NCBI RefSeq assembly: GCF_002504165.1
Contig: NZ_CP021404.1
Span: 1,178,001 to 1,242,000 of the forward strand
Source: Pacificitalea manganoxidans
Lineage (GTDB): Bacteria > Pseudomonadota > Alphaproteobacteria > Rhodobacterales > Rhodobacteraceae
Direction: 5' to 3'
DNA length: 64,000 bases
This document shows, in pieces, positions 46,892 to 54,592 of this stretch (position 1 is its first letter; each line of letters opens with the position of its first letter). Under the pieces are notes generated by a model. It did not search any database. It was not told the origin of the DNA and worked only from the letters and a program-made list of their open reading frames with translations. The position numbers were made by a program, and so were the translations under genes.

Positions 46892-48688
46892 CTACTCGGC
46901 GGCAAGGCCTTCGGTAAACTGAAGCCGCGCCAGTCGCGCATAAAGCCCGCCTTCGGCGACCAGACTGTCATGGGTGCCCTCGGCGATGATCCGGCCTTCG
47001 TCGAACACCAAAATGCGGTCGGCTTTCTTCACGGTCGCCAGCCGATGCGCCACGATCAGAGTCGTGCGCTCCGCCGATAGCGCATCAACTGCCGCCTGCA
47101 CCAATTGCTCGCTCTCGGCATCCAGAGCGGATGTCGCCTCGTCCAGAAGCAGGACCGGCGCGTCGCGCAGGATGGCGCGGGCGATGGCGATGCGCTGCTT
47201 TTGCCCACCTGACAGCATCACGCCGCGTTCGCCCACATAACTGTCATAGCCTTTGGGCAGGGTGCGGATAAACGTGTCGGCCGCAGCGGCGCGGGCGGCG
47301 GCCTCGACCTCCGCATCGGTGGCGTCGGGGCGACCGAACCGGATGTTTTCCCGCGCGGTGTCGGCAAAGATCACCGGGTCTTGCGGCACCAGCGCCAGCT
47401 GGCGACGGAATTCGGCGCGGGTCATGTCCGGTAGGGCGATGCCATCCAGACGCACGGTGCCCGATTCCGGGTCGTAGAAGCGCAGCAGCAACTGAAATAC
47501 GGTGGATTTGCCCGCGCCCGAGGGGCCGACCAGCGCCACGGTTTCGCCCGGTGCGATGGTCAGGCTGATGCCCTCCAATGCAGCGATGTCGGGACGTGCG
47601 GGGTAGTGGAAGGTCACATCGTCAAACCGGATCTCGCCGCGTGCGCGCCCCTCCAGCCGGGTCGGCGCGGCGGGGTCGGCAACGGTGTCGCGGGCGTCGA
47701 GCAATTCGGCCAGCCGTTCGGTCGCGCCTGCGGCGCGCTGCAACTCGCCCCAGATTTCGGACAGCGCAGCGGTGGAGCCTGCGACCATGCCCGAATAAAT
47801 CACGAACTGCACCAGTTCGCCTGCGCTCATCACGCCCGCCTGCACGTCGCGCGCGCCGATCCACAGCACGCCCAGAATGCCCGAAAACACCACAAAGATG
47901 ATGATGATGGTCAGCAGCGCGCGCACGGTGATCCGGCGCAACGCGGAGCGGTAGCTGTCTTCGGTGATGCGGGCAAAGCGCGCCTGCGCCGTGGCCTCGG
48001 CGGAATAGGCCTGCACGGTCTGCGCGGACAAAAGCGCCTCGGACGCGTTGCCGGAACTCTCCGCGATGAAATCCTGATTTTCGCGGCTCAGCGCCCGCAG
48101 CCGCCGCCCCAGCGCAAGGATCGGCAGGATCATGACCGGCACGATCAGCAGCACCAGCCCCGTCAGCTTGACCGATGTGATGAGCATCGCCACCAGCCCG
48201 CCGGAAAAGATCAGCATGTTGCGCAGCGAATAGCTGACCGACGACCCGATCACCGACAGGATCAGCGTCGTGTCGGTGGTGATGCGGCTCAGCACCTCGC
48301 CCGTCATCAGGCGTTCGTAATAGGCGGGGCTCATCGCGATCATTCGGTCGAACACGGCGCGGCGCACATCGGCCACCACCCGTTCGCCCAATCGGGTCAC
48401 GATATAATACCGCAGACCCGTGCCGCAGGCGAAGACCAGCGCGATGCCGATAGCGGCGATGAAATACTGATCCAGCAGATGCAGATCGCCCGCCGCAAAG
48501 CCATCGACGACCCGCCGCGCGGCCATCGGCAGCACCAGCGACACGCCCGCGGTCAGCATCAATGCAAGCCCGCCGAGGATGACCCAAGGCAGATAGGGCT
48601 TCAGGAACGGACCCAGCGCCCGCAACGCGCCGATCCTGCGCGACCCGTCGCGCTGCTCGGCGCCGGTGATGCTCGATCCTCGTGCCAT
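46892..48688 (-). CDS. ABC exporter, fused membrane and ATPase domains (MsbA-like)
   Basis: A 598-aa half-transporter that should dimerise. Six membrane helices occupy residues about 30-310; the ATPase has Walker A VGPSGAGKST (387-396), Q-loop LALVPQDPVIFADT, signature MLSGGQKQRIAIARA, Walker B VLLLDEATSALD and the switch His in IVAHRLATV. The helical part (RLMTGEVLSRITTDTTL) resembles lipid/multidrug exporters. The ATG at 48688 (GGGAGCAGACCTG) is chosen over 48730. The substrate is unknown. It ends 41 codons short of nothing: length is normal. Confidence 0.9.
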   Translation of the reverse strand: MARGSSITGAEQRDGSRRIGALRALGPFLKPYLPWVILGGLALMLTAGVSLVLPMAARRVVDGFAAGDLHLLDQYFIAAIGIALVFACGTGLRYYIVTRLGERVVADVRRAVFDRMIAMSPAYYERLMTGEVLSRITTDTTLILSVIGSSVSYSLRNMLIFSGGLVAMLITSVKLTGLVLLIVPVMILPILALGRRLRALSRENQDFIAESSGNASEALLSAQTVQAYSAEATAQARFARITEDSYRSALRRITVRALLTIIIIFVVFSGILGVLWIGARDVQAGVMSAGELVQFVIYSGMVAGSTAALSEIWGELQRAAGATERLAELLDARDTVADPAAPTRLEGRARGEIRFDDVTFHYPARPDIAALEGISLTIAPGETVALVGPSGAGKSTVFQLLLRFYDPESGTVRLDGIALPDMTRAEFRRQLALVPQDPVIFADTARENIRFGRPDATDAEVEAAARAAAADTFIRTLPKGYDSYVGERGVMLSGGQKQRIAIARAILRDAPVLLLDEATSALDAESEQLVQAAVDALSAERTTLIVAHRLATVKKADRILVFDEGRIIAEGTHDSLVAEGGLYARLARLQFTEGLAAE

Positions 48689-48810
48689 CAGGTCTGCTCC
48701 CTCATCATGCCGGACCCGCTTACTGCCCACAGGGCGAGCCGTAAAGTGGAGGAGGGTGCGACCGGGTGTCGGGGCAGGGCCGGGGATCGCTGGATCGGAG
48801 AGGGAGAAGC

Positions 48811-49864: not shown

Positions 49865-50851
49865 TCACGGGATTCGCGGCGGGCGCAAAAAAGGTGATCG
49901 GAGCTTTGGAATCCGGCGCATCTCGACCAGCGCGCCGGGGTTATCGGGCACCAATGCCTGAAGCGCGGCGACCAATGCGGTGCCGTGCCGGGCAATCAGC
50001 GCGTTGCGGTCAGCATTCGGATGGCCCAGCTTCAGCCCGATACTGGGGTTGGTGTTGATCTCGAATACCTGCACCCGGCCATTGTGGAGCCCGTAGTCAG
50101 CGCGGCCAAATTCCATCTGGGCCACATCGAACGCGGCGCGGATCGGCGCCTCGAACGGGTTCAGGTCGAAATCGGCCAGATCGCGGGCATAGGCGTCATC
50201 GGTCGCGGCGGCGACGCTGCCATGTTTGGCCAGCCAGTTCTGTTCGCTCACGGGCGGCGCGGGGATGATCCGGTCGCCCAGCCGGAAGGCTGCGTATTTG
50301 CGGGTCGCGCCATTGGCGTCCCGCTCCGTGGGTTGGAACTGAATGAAGCCCAGATCCGACAGCACATGCCCGGCGGCTAGCGCCTGTGTCAGGGTTTCGC
50401 GGGCGGCGGCTTCGTCTTCGATCAGCCCGCCGAACACCCCGCGATGCGCCGACATCGTGCGCAGGAAGACGGGATAACGGTCGGGCCATTCGTCCAGCAT
50501 TGGCAGCCAGCAGGTGTAATCGATCAGTCCCGCGCCGCGCAATTTGCGGATCAGCCCAGCCCGCGGCAGAAACTTGCGCGGGTCGTTGAGCGCGGGAAGC
50601 CCGGCATCGCGCACGCGGTCGTGCATCCGCACGGCCAGTTCCAGCCATGCCGGTGACAGCCGGTCCAGATCGCAGAAGATATAGACCGCGCGCGGCAGTC
50701 GGGTGAGGCGCATCAATTCCCAATAATGTGCCACATGAACAGGCGTTCCCGCCGCTGTTGCCGCATCGACGAGGCCTTTTAGATGCCGCCGATGATCCCG
50801 CGTGGTCACGAAGATCGCATGAATTGTATTTTTCTTGACGCGAAGTAACAA
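49865..50851 (-). CDS. ATP-grasp-like enzyme of the RiPP-like locus
   Basis: About 328 aa. The N-terminal part starts a Rossmann-like pre-ATP-grasp fold (NTIHAIFVTTRDHRRHLKGL, AVYIFCDLDRLS). The C-terminal part has MEFGRADYGLHNGRVQVFEI and NTNPSIG, matching the Mg-binding Glu-x-Asn-x-x-Pro end of ATP-grasp ligases; LGDRIIPAPP and YAAFRLG precede it. The start is uncertain: no ATG lies in frame, so TTG at 50851 is used; a TTG at 50923 would overlap the divergent peptide gene. It faces two small peptide genes and an HExxH enzyme, so it likely ligates or cross-links those peptides. This is inference. Confidence 0.72.
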   Translation of the reverse strand: MLLRVKKNTIHAIFVTTRDHRRHLKGLVDAATAAGTPVHVAHYWELMRLTRLPRAVYIFCDLDRLSPAWLELAVRMHDRVRDAGLPALNDPRKFLPRAGLIRKLRGAGLIDYTCWLPMLDEWPDRYPVFLRTMSAHRGVFGGLIEDEAAARETLTQALAAGHVLSDLGFIQFQPTERDANGATRKYAAFRLGDRIIPAPPVSEQNWLAKHGSVAAATDDAYARDLADFDLNPFEAPIRAAFDVAQMEFGRADYGLHNGRVQVFEINTNPSIGLKLGHPNADRNALIARHGTALVAALQALVPDNPGALVEMRRIPKLRSPFLRPPRIP

Positions 50852-50876
50852 CTCTGGAACCGTCCCTATGAACCTC

Positions 50877-50891
50877 CGCGCATAATGCGCG
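50877..50891. promoter_or_regulatory. Perfect palindrome in the divergent ATP-grasp / peptide promoter
   Basis: CGCGCAT-A-ATGCGCG is a perfect 15-base palindrome 21 bases before the first peptide ATG. It contains CATAAT (plus) and CATTAT (minus), so it could be an operator overlapping -10 elements for both directions. AGGGAG, 7 bases before the ATG at 50913, is the ribosome binding site. Confidence 0.55.
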
Positions 50892-50912
50892 ATTGCTGCA
50901 GGGAGTCTACAA

Positions 50913-51098
50913 ATGTCTACCAACGGTAAACCCGTTCACAGCCCGCGGTCCGGCGTCTGCGATCCCCAGCGGCTGATGGGCTTCCGGCTTCTCGATGGCA
51001 GCCGCATGGCCGTGCTTCAGGCCAAGCGTGGTGACAAGCGCGTTGGCGTTCCGGTCGTGGCGCTCGGGATGAAGCAGGGCAAAAAAGACGTCTTGTGA
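50913..51098 (+). CDS. Candidate RiPP precursor peptide 1
   Basis: A 61-aa basic peptide. Residues 17-25 read DPQRLMGFR and are repeated almost exactly in the next small gene (DPTRLMGFR), whereas the rest differs; this is a leader-like recognition block. Downstream are VLQAKRGDKRVGVP and VALGMKQGKKDVL, rich in Lys, Asp and Gly. One Cys (residue 16). AGGGAG lies 7 bases before the ATG. The neighbours are an ATP-grasp-like gene on the other strand and an HExxH enzyme downstream. No known function; the precursor role is inferred from size, duplication and context. Confidence 0.68.
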   Translation: MSTNGKPVHSPRSGVCDPQRLMGFRLLDGSRMAVLQAKRGDKRVGVPVVALGMKQGKKDVL

Positions 51099-51132
51099 TT
51101 TCGTCTCCCTTCCGGGGGAGTGGCGATAGGGG

Positions 51133-51174
51133 GACGTGCCGCAAGCGGTGCGTCCTTTCGTCGGTTCTACCGAC
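51133..51174 (+). other. Two hairpins between the peptide genes
   Basis: Hairpin 1: GACGTGCCGC-AA-GCGGTGCGTC (51133-51154), 10 pairs with two G-T wobbles, followed by CTTTCG. Hairpin 2: GTCGGT-TCT-ACCGAC (51160-51174), perfect arms, followed by TAGTTTG. Together they could form a weak terminator or attenuator after peptide 1, giving unequal expression of the peptide and enzyme genes. Confidence 0.55.
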
Positions 51175-51212
51175 TAGTTTGAATGTTAACACCATTAGAT
51201 AGGATGACCCAT

Positions 51213-51401
51213 ATGACCAAATCTGCGACTGACACGACCCCTGCCATCGATCCCACCCGCCTCATGGGCTTCCGCATCATCGTCGATACCGAAGCCGGCG
51301 ACACCGTGCTGGGTGCCAAGCAGGGCCGTAAGGATCTGGGACGTCCCGCGACCCTTATGGCTGCGAAAATCGGGTTGAAAGCGGGCAGCAAGGTCACCTG
51401 A
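51213..51401 (+). CDS. Candidate RiPP precursor peptide 2
   Basis: A 62-aa peptide paralogous to peptide 1: DPTRLMGFR at residues 13-21, then VLGAKQGRKDLGRP aligned to VLQAKRGDKRVGVP and a Lys/Gly-rich end (AAKIGLKAGSKVT). It lacks cysteine and has DTEAGDT inserted after the shared block. AGGA lies 8 bases before ATG 51213; an ATG at 51204 is less likely. The enzyme gene starts 45 bases later. Function is not known. Confidence 0.68.
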   Translation: MTKSATDTTPAIDPTRLMGFRIIVDTEAGDTVLGAKQGRKDLGRPATLMAAKIGLKAGSKVT

Positions 51402-51446
51402 GGCCCGCGCGTCGCGATATAGAAATCTGACCCGGAAAGACCAATA

Positions 51447-52451
51447 ATGACGGCCACGCCCGCCGCGATCTCGCGCTCCGACTCATTCCGATTCGCGCCA
51501 TCCGCGCTTGAGGGGGAGGCAATCGACGCCGCGGTCCACGAAGACCTTGCCGCATCACTGGCCTATCTGGCTGAACACTTGGCCCCGGCGCATCCTGAAT
51601 CCGCCGGGGCGCTTGATGCCGTTGCGGCGCGCATCCGCGATGGTCAACGTCTGCCGCCCGTGGCCTTTGGCCTCTATTACCGGATGGGTGAGGCTGCACT
51701 GGGCGGGGATATCGACGCGGCCGCCGATATTGCGCAGGTGCTGGCGCAGGTGCCCGCGGCGGCGCCCGGTCTACAGGTCATCTACCGCGGCGGAGCCAAT
51801 TCCGACGCGCTTTGGCCCGTGCTGGAAGAGCGGTTCGGACCGGAAGAGGCCGCAGGCTTTGCCCCGATCACCGCCGAAATGGCCACCGATTTCGAAGCGC
51901 GGCTGAAGGACGGTCTGGCGCTGATGCACTCCGCATTGCCCGACCTGCATGGCGAGATTACCGCGATCCTGCGCGAAGTGCTGCTGGCGCAGGCGCCCGC
52001 AGGCGCGAAGATGGAATTCGACGGCGCGTCACATTATCAATTCTGGGGGTTGCTGTTGCTGAACCCCAATCACCACAAAACCCCACTCGCCGTCGTGGAG
52101 GTGCTGGCGCACGAAGCCGCACATTCGCTGCTGTTCGGCCTGACCCGGACCGAGCCGCTGGTGCTGAACTCCGATGATGAACTGTTTACGTCGCCGCTGC
52201 GGGTCGATCCGCGTCCGATGGATGGCATCTATCACGCGACATTCGTGTCGGCCCGGATGGCTTGGGCGATGGAGCGGATGTCCGAATCTCCCGCTTTGCC
52301 CATCGAATTGCGACAGGAAGCCGCCCACCTCGCGGCCGAGGATCGCGCGAATTTCGCCAAGGGGATCGGCACCGTCGATGCTCACGCGCGGCTCAGCACG
52401 ACTGGCGCGCGGATCATGGAGCAGGCGCGCGCCTATATCGATGGGCAGTGA
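51447..52451 (+). CDS. HExxH-motif peptide-modification enzyme (aKG-HExxH hydroxylase-like)
   Basis: A 334-aa protein without signal peptide. The metal motif is LAHEAAHSLLFGL (HEAAH at residues 222-226), followed by LFTSPLRVDPRP (247-257) and GIYHATFVSAR (260-270), where His263 is a likely third ligand and Arg256 or Arg270 may hold a co-substrate. The combination HE..H plus SP.R.DPRP..G..H is what I know from the HExxH putative peptide modification family, members of which were shown to be alpha-ketoglutarate-dependent peptide beta-hydroxylases. The N-terminal half (about 1-200) is alpha-helical. It follows the two small peptides in the same direction. Confidence 0.78.
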   Translation: MTATPAAISRSDSFRFAPSALEGEAIDAAVHEDLAASLAYLAEHLAPAHPESAGALDAVAARIRDGQRLPPVAFGLYYRMGEAALGGDIDAAADIAQVLAQVPAAAPGLQVIYRGGANSDALWPVLEERFGPEEAAGFAPITAEMATDFEARLKDGLALMHSALPDLHGEITAILREVLLAQAPAGAKMEFDGASHYQFWGLLLLNPNHHKTPLAVVEVLAHEAAHSLLFGLTRTEPLVLNSDDELFTSPLRVDPRPMDGIYHATFVSARMAWAMERMSESPALPIELRQEAAHLAAEDRANFAKGIGTVDAHARLSTTGARIMEQARAYIDGQ

Positions 52452-52560: not shown

Positions 52561-52755
52561 ATGGCCGGACCTACGCGAAAAAATACCGGGACCCAGTCCC
52601 GCGACGAGCGCCTGAAACAGGCGCTGAAGTCTAATCTCGCCCGGCGCAAGGCGCAGAAAAAGGCACGGGATACCGGCCAGTTGGAGCGGGACGACGCCAC
52701 CGGACCAAACGGGCCGGGGCGCGGGCAGGACGAGGAGCAGACCCCGAATGGATAG
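52561..52755 (+). CDS. Small basic conserved protein upstream of murA
   Basis: A 64-aa hydrophilic protein: [36 protein letters not shown], then an acidic Gly/Glu end. It overlaps the murA start by 8 bases, implying coupled translation. I recall similar short Lys/Arg-rich proteins upstream of murA in Rhodobacterales. No clear ribosome site is visible before its ATG. Function unknown. Confidence 0.6.
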
Positions 52756-54022
52756 AATCGTGGTGACCGGAAACGGCCCGCTGAACGGCGAGATTGCGAT
52801 CTCGGGGGCGAAGAACGCCTGCCTGACATTGATGCCGGCAACCTTGCTCAGCGATCAGCCGCTGACCCTGACCAATGCACCGCGCCTGTCGGACATTAAG
52901 ACGATGACCGAATTGCTGCGCTCGCTCGGGGTCGAGGTGTCGTCGCTACAGGGCGGTCAGGTTCTGGCGATGTCGTCGCATGACCTGACCACGACCCGCG
53001 CCGATTATGAGATCGTCCGCAAAATGCGCGCCTCGATCCTTGTGCTGGGGCCGCTGCTGGCGCGCTACGGCCACGCCGAAGTGTCGCTGCCCGGCGGCTG
53101 CGCCATCGGGGCCCGGCCTGTGGATCTCCACCTGAAGGCGCTGGAGGCGATGGGCGCAGAACTGGATCTGCGTGATGGCTATGTGCATGCCAAGGCCCCG
53201 ACCGGCGGCTTGCAGGGCGCAGTGTTCGAATTTCCAATCGTGTCCGTCGGCGCTACCGAAAACGCGCTGTTAGCAGCAACGCTGGCCCGCGGCACGACCG
53301 TGCTGAAAAACGCCGCCCGCGAACCCGAGATCGTCGATCTGGCGCATTGCCTGATCCGCATGGGCGCGCGCATCGAGGGCGTCGGCACCTCCACCCTGAC
53401 GATCGAAGGTGTGGACAGCCTGTCGGGCGCGACCCATCCGGTCGTCACGGACCGGATCGAACTGGGCACCTACATGCTGGCCCCCGCGATCACAGGCGGT
53501 TCGGTCGAATTGCTGGGCGGGCGGCGGGATCTGGTCGCGGCGTTCTGCGATAAACTCGAAGCCGCCGATATCGAAGTCACGGAAACCGAGCGCGGCCTGC
53601 GCGTCAGCCGCAAGAACGGTCGCCTGCGGGCCGTCGATGTGGTGACCGAGCCGTTCCCCGGCTTCCCCACCGATTTGCAGGCGCAGATGATGGCGATGCT
53701 CTGCACGGCCGAAGGCACCTCGCGGCTGGAAGAGAAGATCTTTGAGAACCGGTTCATGCATGCGCCCGAACTGATCCGCATGGGCGCGCGCATTGACGTG
53801 CAGGGGGGGCGTGCCTCGGTCACCGGAGTCGAACGGCTGCGCGGCGCGCCTGTGATGGCGACCGACCTGCGCGCCAGCGTCTCGCTGATCCTCGCCGGTC
53901 TGGCGGCAGAGGGCGAAACGGTCGTGAACCGAGTCTACCATCTGGACCGGGGTTATGAGCGGGTCGAGGATAAACTGGGCGCTTGCGGCGCAAAGATCGA
54001 GCGCATCAGCGACAAGGGCTGA
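52748..54022 (+). CDS. murA: UDP-N-acetylglucosamine 1-carboxyvinyltransferase
   Basis: A 424-aa enzyme for the first committed step of peptidoglycan synthesis. [16 protein letters not shown] (residues 19-34) carries the conserved Lys-Asn, and the catalytic Cys118 is in [15 protein letters not shown], so the enzyme should be fosfomycin-sensitive. [14 protein letters not shown] and RAGVSL-like [18 protein letters not shown] are further signatures. Length matches. It is followed by DUF2948 and hisD. Confidence 0.96.
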
Positions 54023-54094
54023 GCATGGCCTGAGACTTGGCAGGGCGCGCGGCCCCATGCGCGCCCGCCGTATAAGAAGCAACGGAACGTGACG

Positions 54095-54592
54095 ATGACC
54101 GACGCGACTTTTCAGGACGGAGCCGAAACACCGCTATACCTCAAGGCGCTGGATGCCGGGGCGGTGCCGCTGCTGTCCGCCTATGCGCAGGATGCGGTAT
54201 TCCCGATCTCGGAGATGCGGTTCGATAAGATGGACCGCCACTTTGCGCTGTTGATCAACCGCTTCCGCTGGGAGGACAGAGCCGCCGCAGAGGCGCAGGG
54301 CCGCCCCTATGAGCGTGTGCGCGCGGTGTTGATGATCGGCGATGTGATGCGCGTCGCGACCTCCGGTATCGACCGCAGCGACAAGGATCTGGTTCTGTCG
54401 CTTCTCGATATCGCGTTCGAGCCGGGCGCGGATGGCACCGGCACCTTGCTGCTGACGCTGGCGGGGGATGGCGCGATCCGGCTGGAGGTCGAGTGCCTCG
54501 ACCTGCTGCTGCGCGATGTGGAGCGCCCCTATGCTGCCCCGTCGGGCAAGGTGCCCTCGCATCCCGTCACCGAGGACGGCAGCGCCGGATAG
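54095..54592 (+). CDS. DUF2948 family protein
   Basis: A 165-aa cytosolic protein: LYLKALDAGAVPLLSAYAQD, AVFPISEMRFDKMDRHFALL, INRFRWED and LTLAGDGAIRLEVECLDLLL. This is the DUF2948 family found beside hisD in many Rhodobacterales; its role is unknown. The ATG at 54095 is taken rather than the GTG at 54089. It lies 72 bases after murA and 102 before hisD. Confidence 0.8.
   Translation: MTDATFQDGAETPLYLKALDAGAVPLLSAYAQDAVFPISEMRFDKMDRHFALLINRFRWEDRAAAEAQGRPYERVRAVLMIGDVMRVATSGIDRSDKDLVLSLLDIAFEPGADGTGTLLLTLAGDGAIRLEVECLDLLLRDVERPYAAPSGKVPSHPVTEDGSAG

Follow-up and report, generated by a model that had tools for sequence, protein, structure and literature searches.

A cassette of an HExxH hydroxylase, Lys-x-Gly repeat peptides and an exchangeable ligase as a candidate new class of ribosomal peptide

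By analogy, the nearest known pathway in logic to the one described here is that of corallotide, in which an ATP-grasp ligase and a 2-oxoglutarate (alpha-ketoglutarate, aKG) oxygenase act on repeated lysine-containing KxxxD units to form lysine isopeptides (PMC13097080). A second point of comparison is the aKG-HExxH family of hydroxylases acting on ribosomally synthesized and post-translationally modified peptides (RiPPs), represented by ChlB/ChlH, PflC/PosC, PesO and BpmH. Known members hydroxylate His, Asp, Phe, Gln and Pro (PMC13060819), and the partners reported for them are radical SAM enzymes, MNIO or MNIO/nitroreductase, a JmjC hydroxylase with a metallopeptidase, and an Asn-synthetase-like nitrile enzyme. 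No HExxH family figures among the 18 common associated families in Table 1 of the graspetide survey, the main text of which mentions neither HExxH nor TIGR04267. Our comparisons draw on parts of these and related papers (PMC12636437, PMC8939145, PMC13097080, PMC12452194, PMC12257519, PMC13060819 and PMC9427784). Here we analyse a four-gene cassette at positions 49865-52451 of a 64,000-nucleotide stretch (the window) from the 3.96 Mb genome of Pacificitalea manganoxidans (NZ_CP021404.1, positions 1,178,001 to 1,242,000), in which an aKG-HExxH-type enzyme is accompanied by an ATP-grasp ligase and two small peptides. The original prediction held this combination to be undescribed. In open-licence PMC full texts, which cover neither subscription papers nor supplements, we likewise found neither the pairing, nor the precursor type, nor multi-site lysine modification by an oxygenase and an ATP-grasp enzyme without a ring-closing acceptor.

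We propose that the cassette directs the synthesis of a ribosomal peptide with modified lysines. Towards its N terminus the precursor would carry LDx[ST]KLLGF[KR] as the leader for recognition, and repeated [A/S]-K-x-G units would make up the variable core at the C-terminal end. A predicted iron/aKG oxygenase, the HExxH enzyme would read the leader and hydroxylate the core, most likely at the lysine beta carbon of each unit. The ATP-grasp enzyme would activate a carboxylate as an acyl phosphate and then form an amide bond, most likely by capping these lysines on their side-chain amines with a small acid or an amino acid, in repeated rounds along the core. The ligase's place is taken in other lineages by a cyanophycin-synthetase-like ATP-grasp protein and, once, by an adenylation/carrier/thioesterase protein. 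We put the probability of this proposal as a whole, leader-guided lysine hydroxylation with amide-capping of K-x-G units by the ligase, at about one in two. Sequences and predicted models establish which genes are present, the leader and the K-x-G core, the exchange of ligases and two folds with intact catalytic motifs; what the reactions are in detail and what the product does are weakly indicated. The proposed modification would work much like EF-P beta-lysylation and hypusination, where an enzyme extends the side chain of one lysine within a short Gly-Lys loop and an oxygenase hydroxylates it; those systems differ in using other enzymes and in acting on one lysine of a folded protein rather than on many in a small peptide.

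The cassette comprises four open reading frames (ORFs), all present and gene-like as had been proposed:

49865-50923, minus strand: type-A ligase with a predicted ATP-grasp fold, 352 residues as listed (ORF list, predicted model, alignment)
50913-51098, plus strand: precursor peptide 1 (P1), 61 residues; leader ..CDPQRLMGFRLL..; core holds AKRG and MKQG
51213-51401, plus strand: precursor peptide 2 (P2), 62 residues from ATG 51213; leader ..IDPTRLMGFRII..; core holds AKQG, AKIG and LKAG
51447-52451, plus strand: aKG-HExxH-type peptide hydroxylase, 334 residues; sole TIGR04267 match in the genome

The ATP-grasp ORF carries the motif VFEINTNP. Its listed TTG start runs into the first peptide gene, and the in-frame TTG at 50851 (328 residues), which agrees better with relatives, is the more likely start. 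AGGGAG or AGGA precedes the starts of P1 and P2, for the second of which an alternative ATG lies upstream at 51183 (72 residues). GC content per codon position (0.69/0.44/0.77 in P1, 0.58/0.53/0.74 in P2) resembles that of the adjacent genes. No further precursor was found in the genome of the window apart from a chance-level match (E 0.33) containing a stop.

Relatives were collected by scanning genome contigs with the HExxH protein alone, which yielded 58 loci (numbered with the prefix L; L042 and L090 duplicate L024 and L029). Since the loci were fetched by this one protein, the peptides and ligases found in them are independent findings. Candidate precursors are present in 54 of the 58: 50 were recognized by motif, L045 by similarity and a leader profile, and L066, L083 and L088 by inspection of the reading frames upstream, the leaders of L083 and L088 being degenerate. 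None was found in L081 and L087, or in L048 and L089, where the locus contains almost no upstream sequence. These relatives extend the observation made in the window to many loci and make the recurring cassette a defined family.

The leader is shared by most candidate loci. Its consensus is LDx[ST]KLLGF[KR][LI], or by position L-D-x-[S/T]-[K/R]-[L/M]-[L/Y/F]-G-[F/Y]-[K/R]-[L/I]. With the duplicate loci dropped, the motif occurs in 57 of 7,560 ORFs, and 51 of these ORFs immediately precede the HExxH gene (hypergeometric p ~1e-59, for sequences that are related and not independent events). The remaining six all lie inside cassettes: the HExxH start is mis-called in L034, L036 and L072, the L024 ORF lies farther upstream in a row of six, that of L055 is separated by another gene, and that of L077 sits between the HExxH gene and the ligase. 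The motif RLMGFR, by which the two peptides were originally recognized, proved too narrow to define the family; in the family peptide list it is confined to P1 and P2 and hence is a local variant. Tried as a marker, the literal pattern matched, among 14 loci, just the two that are the window itself, and was rejected. L066:1390-1808 is a polyprecursor: within this single ORF, leader-like blocks (LDRSK/LDRAKLMGG) take turns with (M)AKIG units, which gives several successive pairs of recognition and core unit.

The K-x-G core, which the original prediction did not contain, is present in nearly all precursors. K-x-G occurs 224 times in 62 cores of 53 loci, compared with 62.8 ± 6.6 in 500 within-core shuffles, and K-x-G-x-K 172 times compared with 7.9 ± 2.7, whereas K-x-K is avoided (7 versus 45.2 in shuffles). 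Among the 224 units, 141 have V, I or L at position x and 117 have A or S ahead of the lysine; outside K-x-G the post-leader sequence varies freely. A scan on K-x-G density alone, over ORFs shorter than 150 residues in the same loci, returned 43 ORFs of which 41 were precursors (or 40 of 41 distinct ORFs, as two places are represented twice). The core lists exclude the duplicates L042 and L090, four spurious motif matches removed by hand (L034_5639, L083_6309, L085_2181 and L085_3673) and the precursors of L045, L066, L083 and L088, which the pattern does not catch; the K-x-G statistics also exclude L082, by hand. No other nucleophile recurs across all the cores as lysine does (61 of 62 have at least one K-x-G, and the last, in L086, has other lysines), so that conservation argues moderately for the K-x-G lysine as the common target of both enzymes.

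By gene content the cassette thus has what defines a RiPP locus, a small precursor with a conserved leader and a variable core beside modifying enzymes, and the reading of the window cassette as RiPP-like is supported by the precursors of the relatives and by the leader and core statistics. Compared with Pfam and NCBIfam, 30 precursors gave weak single-member matches only, which we took as chance. The evidence strongly suggests that the peptides are substrates of the cassette enzymes, and the earlier proposal that they are substrates of the HExxH enzyme is likely to be correct. A separate observation concerns L082:4907-5995, from a Rickettsiales metagenome-assembled genome, in which a leader (LDTSKLLGL) and one AKIG unit head a 362-residue protein. 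Its C terminus reads like an outer-membrane barrel, and no ligase was found near it.

The HExxH protein of the window is a member of the aKG-HExxH peptide hydroxylase family. It matches TIGR04267, against which a search had been proposed, at 103.6 bits (curated cut-off 40), and a genome-wide search (106 bits) finds it in single copy. It carries HEAAH, SPLRVDPRP and GIYHATF. The predicted model (mean predicted local distance difference test, pLDDT, 95.4) has the fold of the aKG-dependent oxygenase ChlH (8s5f; E 6e-11, TM 0.67, root mean square deviation 5.0). H222, E223, H226, S249, P250, R252, R256, P257, G260 and H263 are invariant in 49 aligned HExxH sequences, and HExxH together with the second block SPxRxDxRPxxGxxH is kept in ChlH as well (alignment E 1.5e-9). 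The enzyme therefore shares its family, fold and both motifs with the described aKG-HExxH hydroxylases, and differs from those covered by our sources in its ATP-grasp ligase partners, its Lys-x-Gly cores and its leader.

The ATP-grasp protein of the window, which we call type A, is without a Pfam match at E 1 or an NCBIfam match at E 0.01. Its predicted model (pLDDT 90.6) has an ATP-grasp fold, and D276, E288 and N290, which bind metal in such enzymes, are invariant in 31 type-A sequences. The closest folds are RimK, LysX and ArgX, with Z from 18.5 (best, RimK) to 16.2; D-Ala-D-Ala ligases and the graspetide synthetase PsnB lie near 14. In profile comparisons with solved structures, D-Ala-D-Ala ligases rank first (E 1e-4). 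The likeness to RimK, LysX and ArgX is one of fold, whereas identity is 12-16% and the window protein matches no RimK or LysX model; one of the 31 relatives matches rimK_fam, at E 0.008. Association with the peptides differs between the two enzymes: the HExxH enzyme is accompanied by candidate peptides at nearly every locus, so that it escapes the refutation proposed earlier, homologues regularly lacking the peptides, whereas three distant ATP-grasps at L027, L030 and L031 (type-A-like, 29-33% identity) have neither an HExxH gene nor a K-x-G peptide nearby.

Over the 58 loci we found a type-A ligase in 39, a type-B ligase in 13, both in none and neither in six; the first count includes L057, whose gene is 6 kb away, and the second L070, where a piece lies at the locus edge. 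Type-B proteins are ~600-700 residues as called and resemble the ATP-grasp region of cyanophycin synthetase (CphA1, CphA2). Three that were tested score 201-253 bits (224-253 to PRK14016), far short of the cut-offs of 850-877, and the match stops near profile position 565 of 871, ahead of the Mur-ligase part. CphA1 positions in type B were counted manually from the landmarks Lys261, His267, Arg309 and Arg323, with residue roles taken from PMC9427784. Equivalents of the ATP/acyl-phosphate residues Lys261, Arg309 and Arg323 are invariant in 12 type-B sequences and His267 is replaced by an invariant Arg, while the aspartate-binding Asn394 and Ser396 are both replaced. Type B hence has the ATP-grasp region in common with cyanophycin synthetase, and differs from it in being shorter, in having neither the Mur-ligase part nor the aspartate-binding residues, and in standing beside a RiPP-like precursor; by score, domain content and residues it does not qualify as a cyanophycin synthetase.

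The exchange of ligases, likewise absent from the original prediction, is seen at the level of whole genomes too. Of 16 genomes whose loci have no type-A gene close by, 10 score at least 600 bits with a type-B profile (A3); seven of the 10 are profile rows that match by construction, and L067, L070 and L075 are not. In 16 type-A genomes the profile reaches no more than 360 bits. Conversely, 19 genomes were searched whose loci fall outside the close type-A set, and two of them have a type-A gene: that of L057 itself and one in a Solemya symbiont. For L067 and L075 a trans-encoded type-B ligase was considered and rejected, as in both the type-B gene adjoins the cassette. On a quick HExxH tree, with the label 'trans' counted as B, a minimum of three changes between A and B is needed. 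No consistent link between ligase type and core motif was apparent by eye. The constant parts of the cassette are the hydroxylase, the leader and K-x-G, and the exchangeable part is the carboxylate-activating enzyme.

Distant HExxH relatives in L029/L090 (Amylibacter kogurei), L026 and L102 adjoin AMP-binding, carrier or thioesterase-like genes (Pfam was run for L029 only), and L029 has a leader followed by two LFSKRG units. In L024/L042 (Histidinibacterium lentulum), six precursors stand in a row with two adjacent type-A ligases, and the genome adds the HExxH genes L025 and L026.

Several observations weigh against our proposal. Six loci, L055, L080, L082, L087, L089 and L090, have neither ligase. 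L055 has another protein of 350 residues with a RimK match under the cut-off, and L080 a type-B-like match of 83.6 bits only; L089 is a fragment; in L090 (the same place as L029) an AMP-binding/carrier/thioesterase protein adjoins the HExxH gene. The 2.7 Mb genome of the Solemya velum gill symbiont (L061, L105, L109) holds a type-B cassette and a separate type-A ligase. On the HExxH tree the starred branches alone force two changes under the type-A label and three under the type-B label, and many forks are open. The core of L086 has the leader and no K-x-G, and Asp or Glu is found in 37 of 61 repeat segments. Lysine would be a new target for an aKG-HExxH enzyme, judging by those described. Finally, the polarity of the amide bond may be reversed. 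RimK and LysX activate a carboxylate on a peptide or protein. CphA, too, activates the carboxylate of a peptide and not that of a free acid (PMC9427784), and by analogy homology to it would favour a carboxylate supplied by the peptide. As a separate matter, further cyanophycin-synthetase-like matches occur in the Solemya symbiont genome.

This last point leads to the alternative that survives best, in our view an unlikely one, that the ligase activates the C-terminal carboxylate of the peptide and either adds amino acids to it or joins it to a lysine amine. Such tailing would suit the fold of type A, closest to RimK, LysX and ArgX, and the homology of type B to the part of cyanophycin synthetase that activates a C-terminal carboxylate (PMC9427784). 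However, precursor C termini vary in length and sequence while the K-x-G unit stays, and in type B the residues with which CphA1 binds aspartate, Asn394 and Ser396, are replaced.

Less probable again is a role of the HExxH enzyme in cutting, in which it would cleave the core oxidatively once per unit, for instance at Gly, and free short amidated peptides for the ligase. Two members of its family, PflC and PosC, perform an oxidative cleavage that leaves an amide at the C terminus, and PflC is also capable of hydrolysis (PMC12636437); the repeats could then encode many copies of a product, and no protease occupies a constant place in the cassette. Against this, core spacing is variable, several precursors hold just one or two units, and the conservation of lysine would be left unexplained.

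A graspetide, with Asp or Glu side chains joined to Ser, Thr or Lys and hydroxylation by the HExxH enzyme in the manner of corallotide, was the role first envisaged for the ATP-grasp enzyme, and strikes us as rather improbable. PsnB does appear among the fold matches of type A (Z 14.2), acidic residues occur in over half of the repeat segments and the cores of P1 and P2 themselves contain Asp or Glu. Yet Asp and Glu make up 3.6% of the segments, are missing from 24 of the 61 and, in six of the 61, are missing together with Ser and Thr. Among 63 whole cores, four are free of Asp and Glu (L039, L050 and L058 with type A, L078 with type B), and the entire L058 ORF is so. Because these four cores contain neither acceptor, rings closed within the core cannot be general, and cores with Asp/Glu acceptors and Ser/Thr/Lys donors do not run through the family. 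Moreover, no graspetide maturase model is among the NCBIfam matches of the 31 type-A proteins, in a library that presumably includes such models, and the fold is nearest to RimK and LysX. We therefore rejected the graspetide as our principal explanation on account of the Asp/Glu-free cores. The same cores set the cassette apart from corallotide, which requires the Asp of KxxxD, and the oxygenase here is of the HExxH fold.

That the small proteins act unmodified, for example as cationic binders, beside enzymes that are unrelated neighbours is very improbable: they are lysine-rich and lack a protease or exporter at a constant place, but in these loci the leader is confined to cassettes across widely separated bacteria, alternating leader and core units, as in L066, are what one expects of a substrate, and the constant partner belongs to a peptide-modifying family.

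The 58 loci come chiefly from Alpha-, Beta- and Gammaproteobacteria. Those from other phyla, L040 and L085 (Verrucomicrobiota), L075 (Planctomycetota) and L083 (Acidobacteriota), are all metagenome-assembled, and stray contigs are possible. In whole-genome samples the HExxH protein is uncommon, being present in five of 149 genomes of the window's family and, at E 1e-20, in eight of 398 of a phylum sample, six of the eight in that family (own genome included in both counts). On the HExxH tree, made by a quick method with 17 of 46 inner branches open, the rows closest to the window are Histidinibacterium and Vannielia (Paracoccaceae). A plasmid collection gave two partial HExxH matches, at 24.5% identity with 59% and 32% query coverage.

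In the window, a tRNA-Thr gene and queF lie on the upstream side of the cassette, and a 64-residue ORF matching no Pfam or NCBIfam family on the downstream side, followed by a gene that we take from its translation to be murA. Neighbour-gene clusters suggest that in several Rhodobacterales the cassette occupies one shared chromosomal site, beside putative murA or its next gene (window 52748-54592, L044, L047, L051). A promoter and terminator scan of the locus gave nothing usable. The statement that the locus holds no dedicated protease or exporter stands in part. Neighbour-gene clusters contain neither at a constant cassette position, a protease encoded elsewhere not having been sought. Eight HExxH loci (window, L056, L057, L061, L066, L068, L073 and L081) do have ABC-transporter-like genes, all less than 6 kb from the cassette but at no fixed distance; the one of the window is 46892-48730 (TIGR02204). 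These could be exporters or, such genes being common, chance neighbours, and the product may still be exported. Six related Burkholderiales loci have one gene in common, read as a D,D-peptidase. Among 70 of 193 neighbour ORFs scanned, from 19 hand-picked loci, Glycos_transf_2 was matched seven times and ABC_tran four times, with no background computed. From the neighbour clusters, the cassettes of L054, L055, L056, L057, L059, L060 and L068 seem to lie amid glycosyltransferase and polysaccharide genes.

The cassette is a strong candidate for a new RiPP class. Its constant elements would be the aKG-HExxH hydroxylase and the precursor with Lys-x-Gly repeats. The carboxylate-activating ligase would be exchangeable, being a RimK-like ATP-grasp, a cyanophycin-synthetase-like ATP-grasp or an adenylation-carrier-thioesterase protein, and the products would carry many acylated or aminoacylated hydroxylysines. 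We consider this quite possible though short of probable. If the proposal is true, one scaffold bears different side-chain caps in different lineages, and the family would show how distantly related ligases swap onto one peptide scaffold. It also provides a testable family for orphan ATP-grasp ligases and aKG-HExxH enzymes, two groups with hard-to-predict substrates. With its repeat core, the L066 polyprecursor and the natural exchange of ligases, the cassette would be a system suited to decorating lysines.

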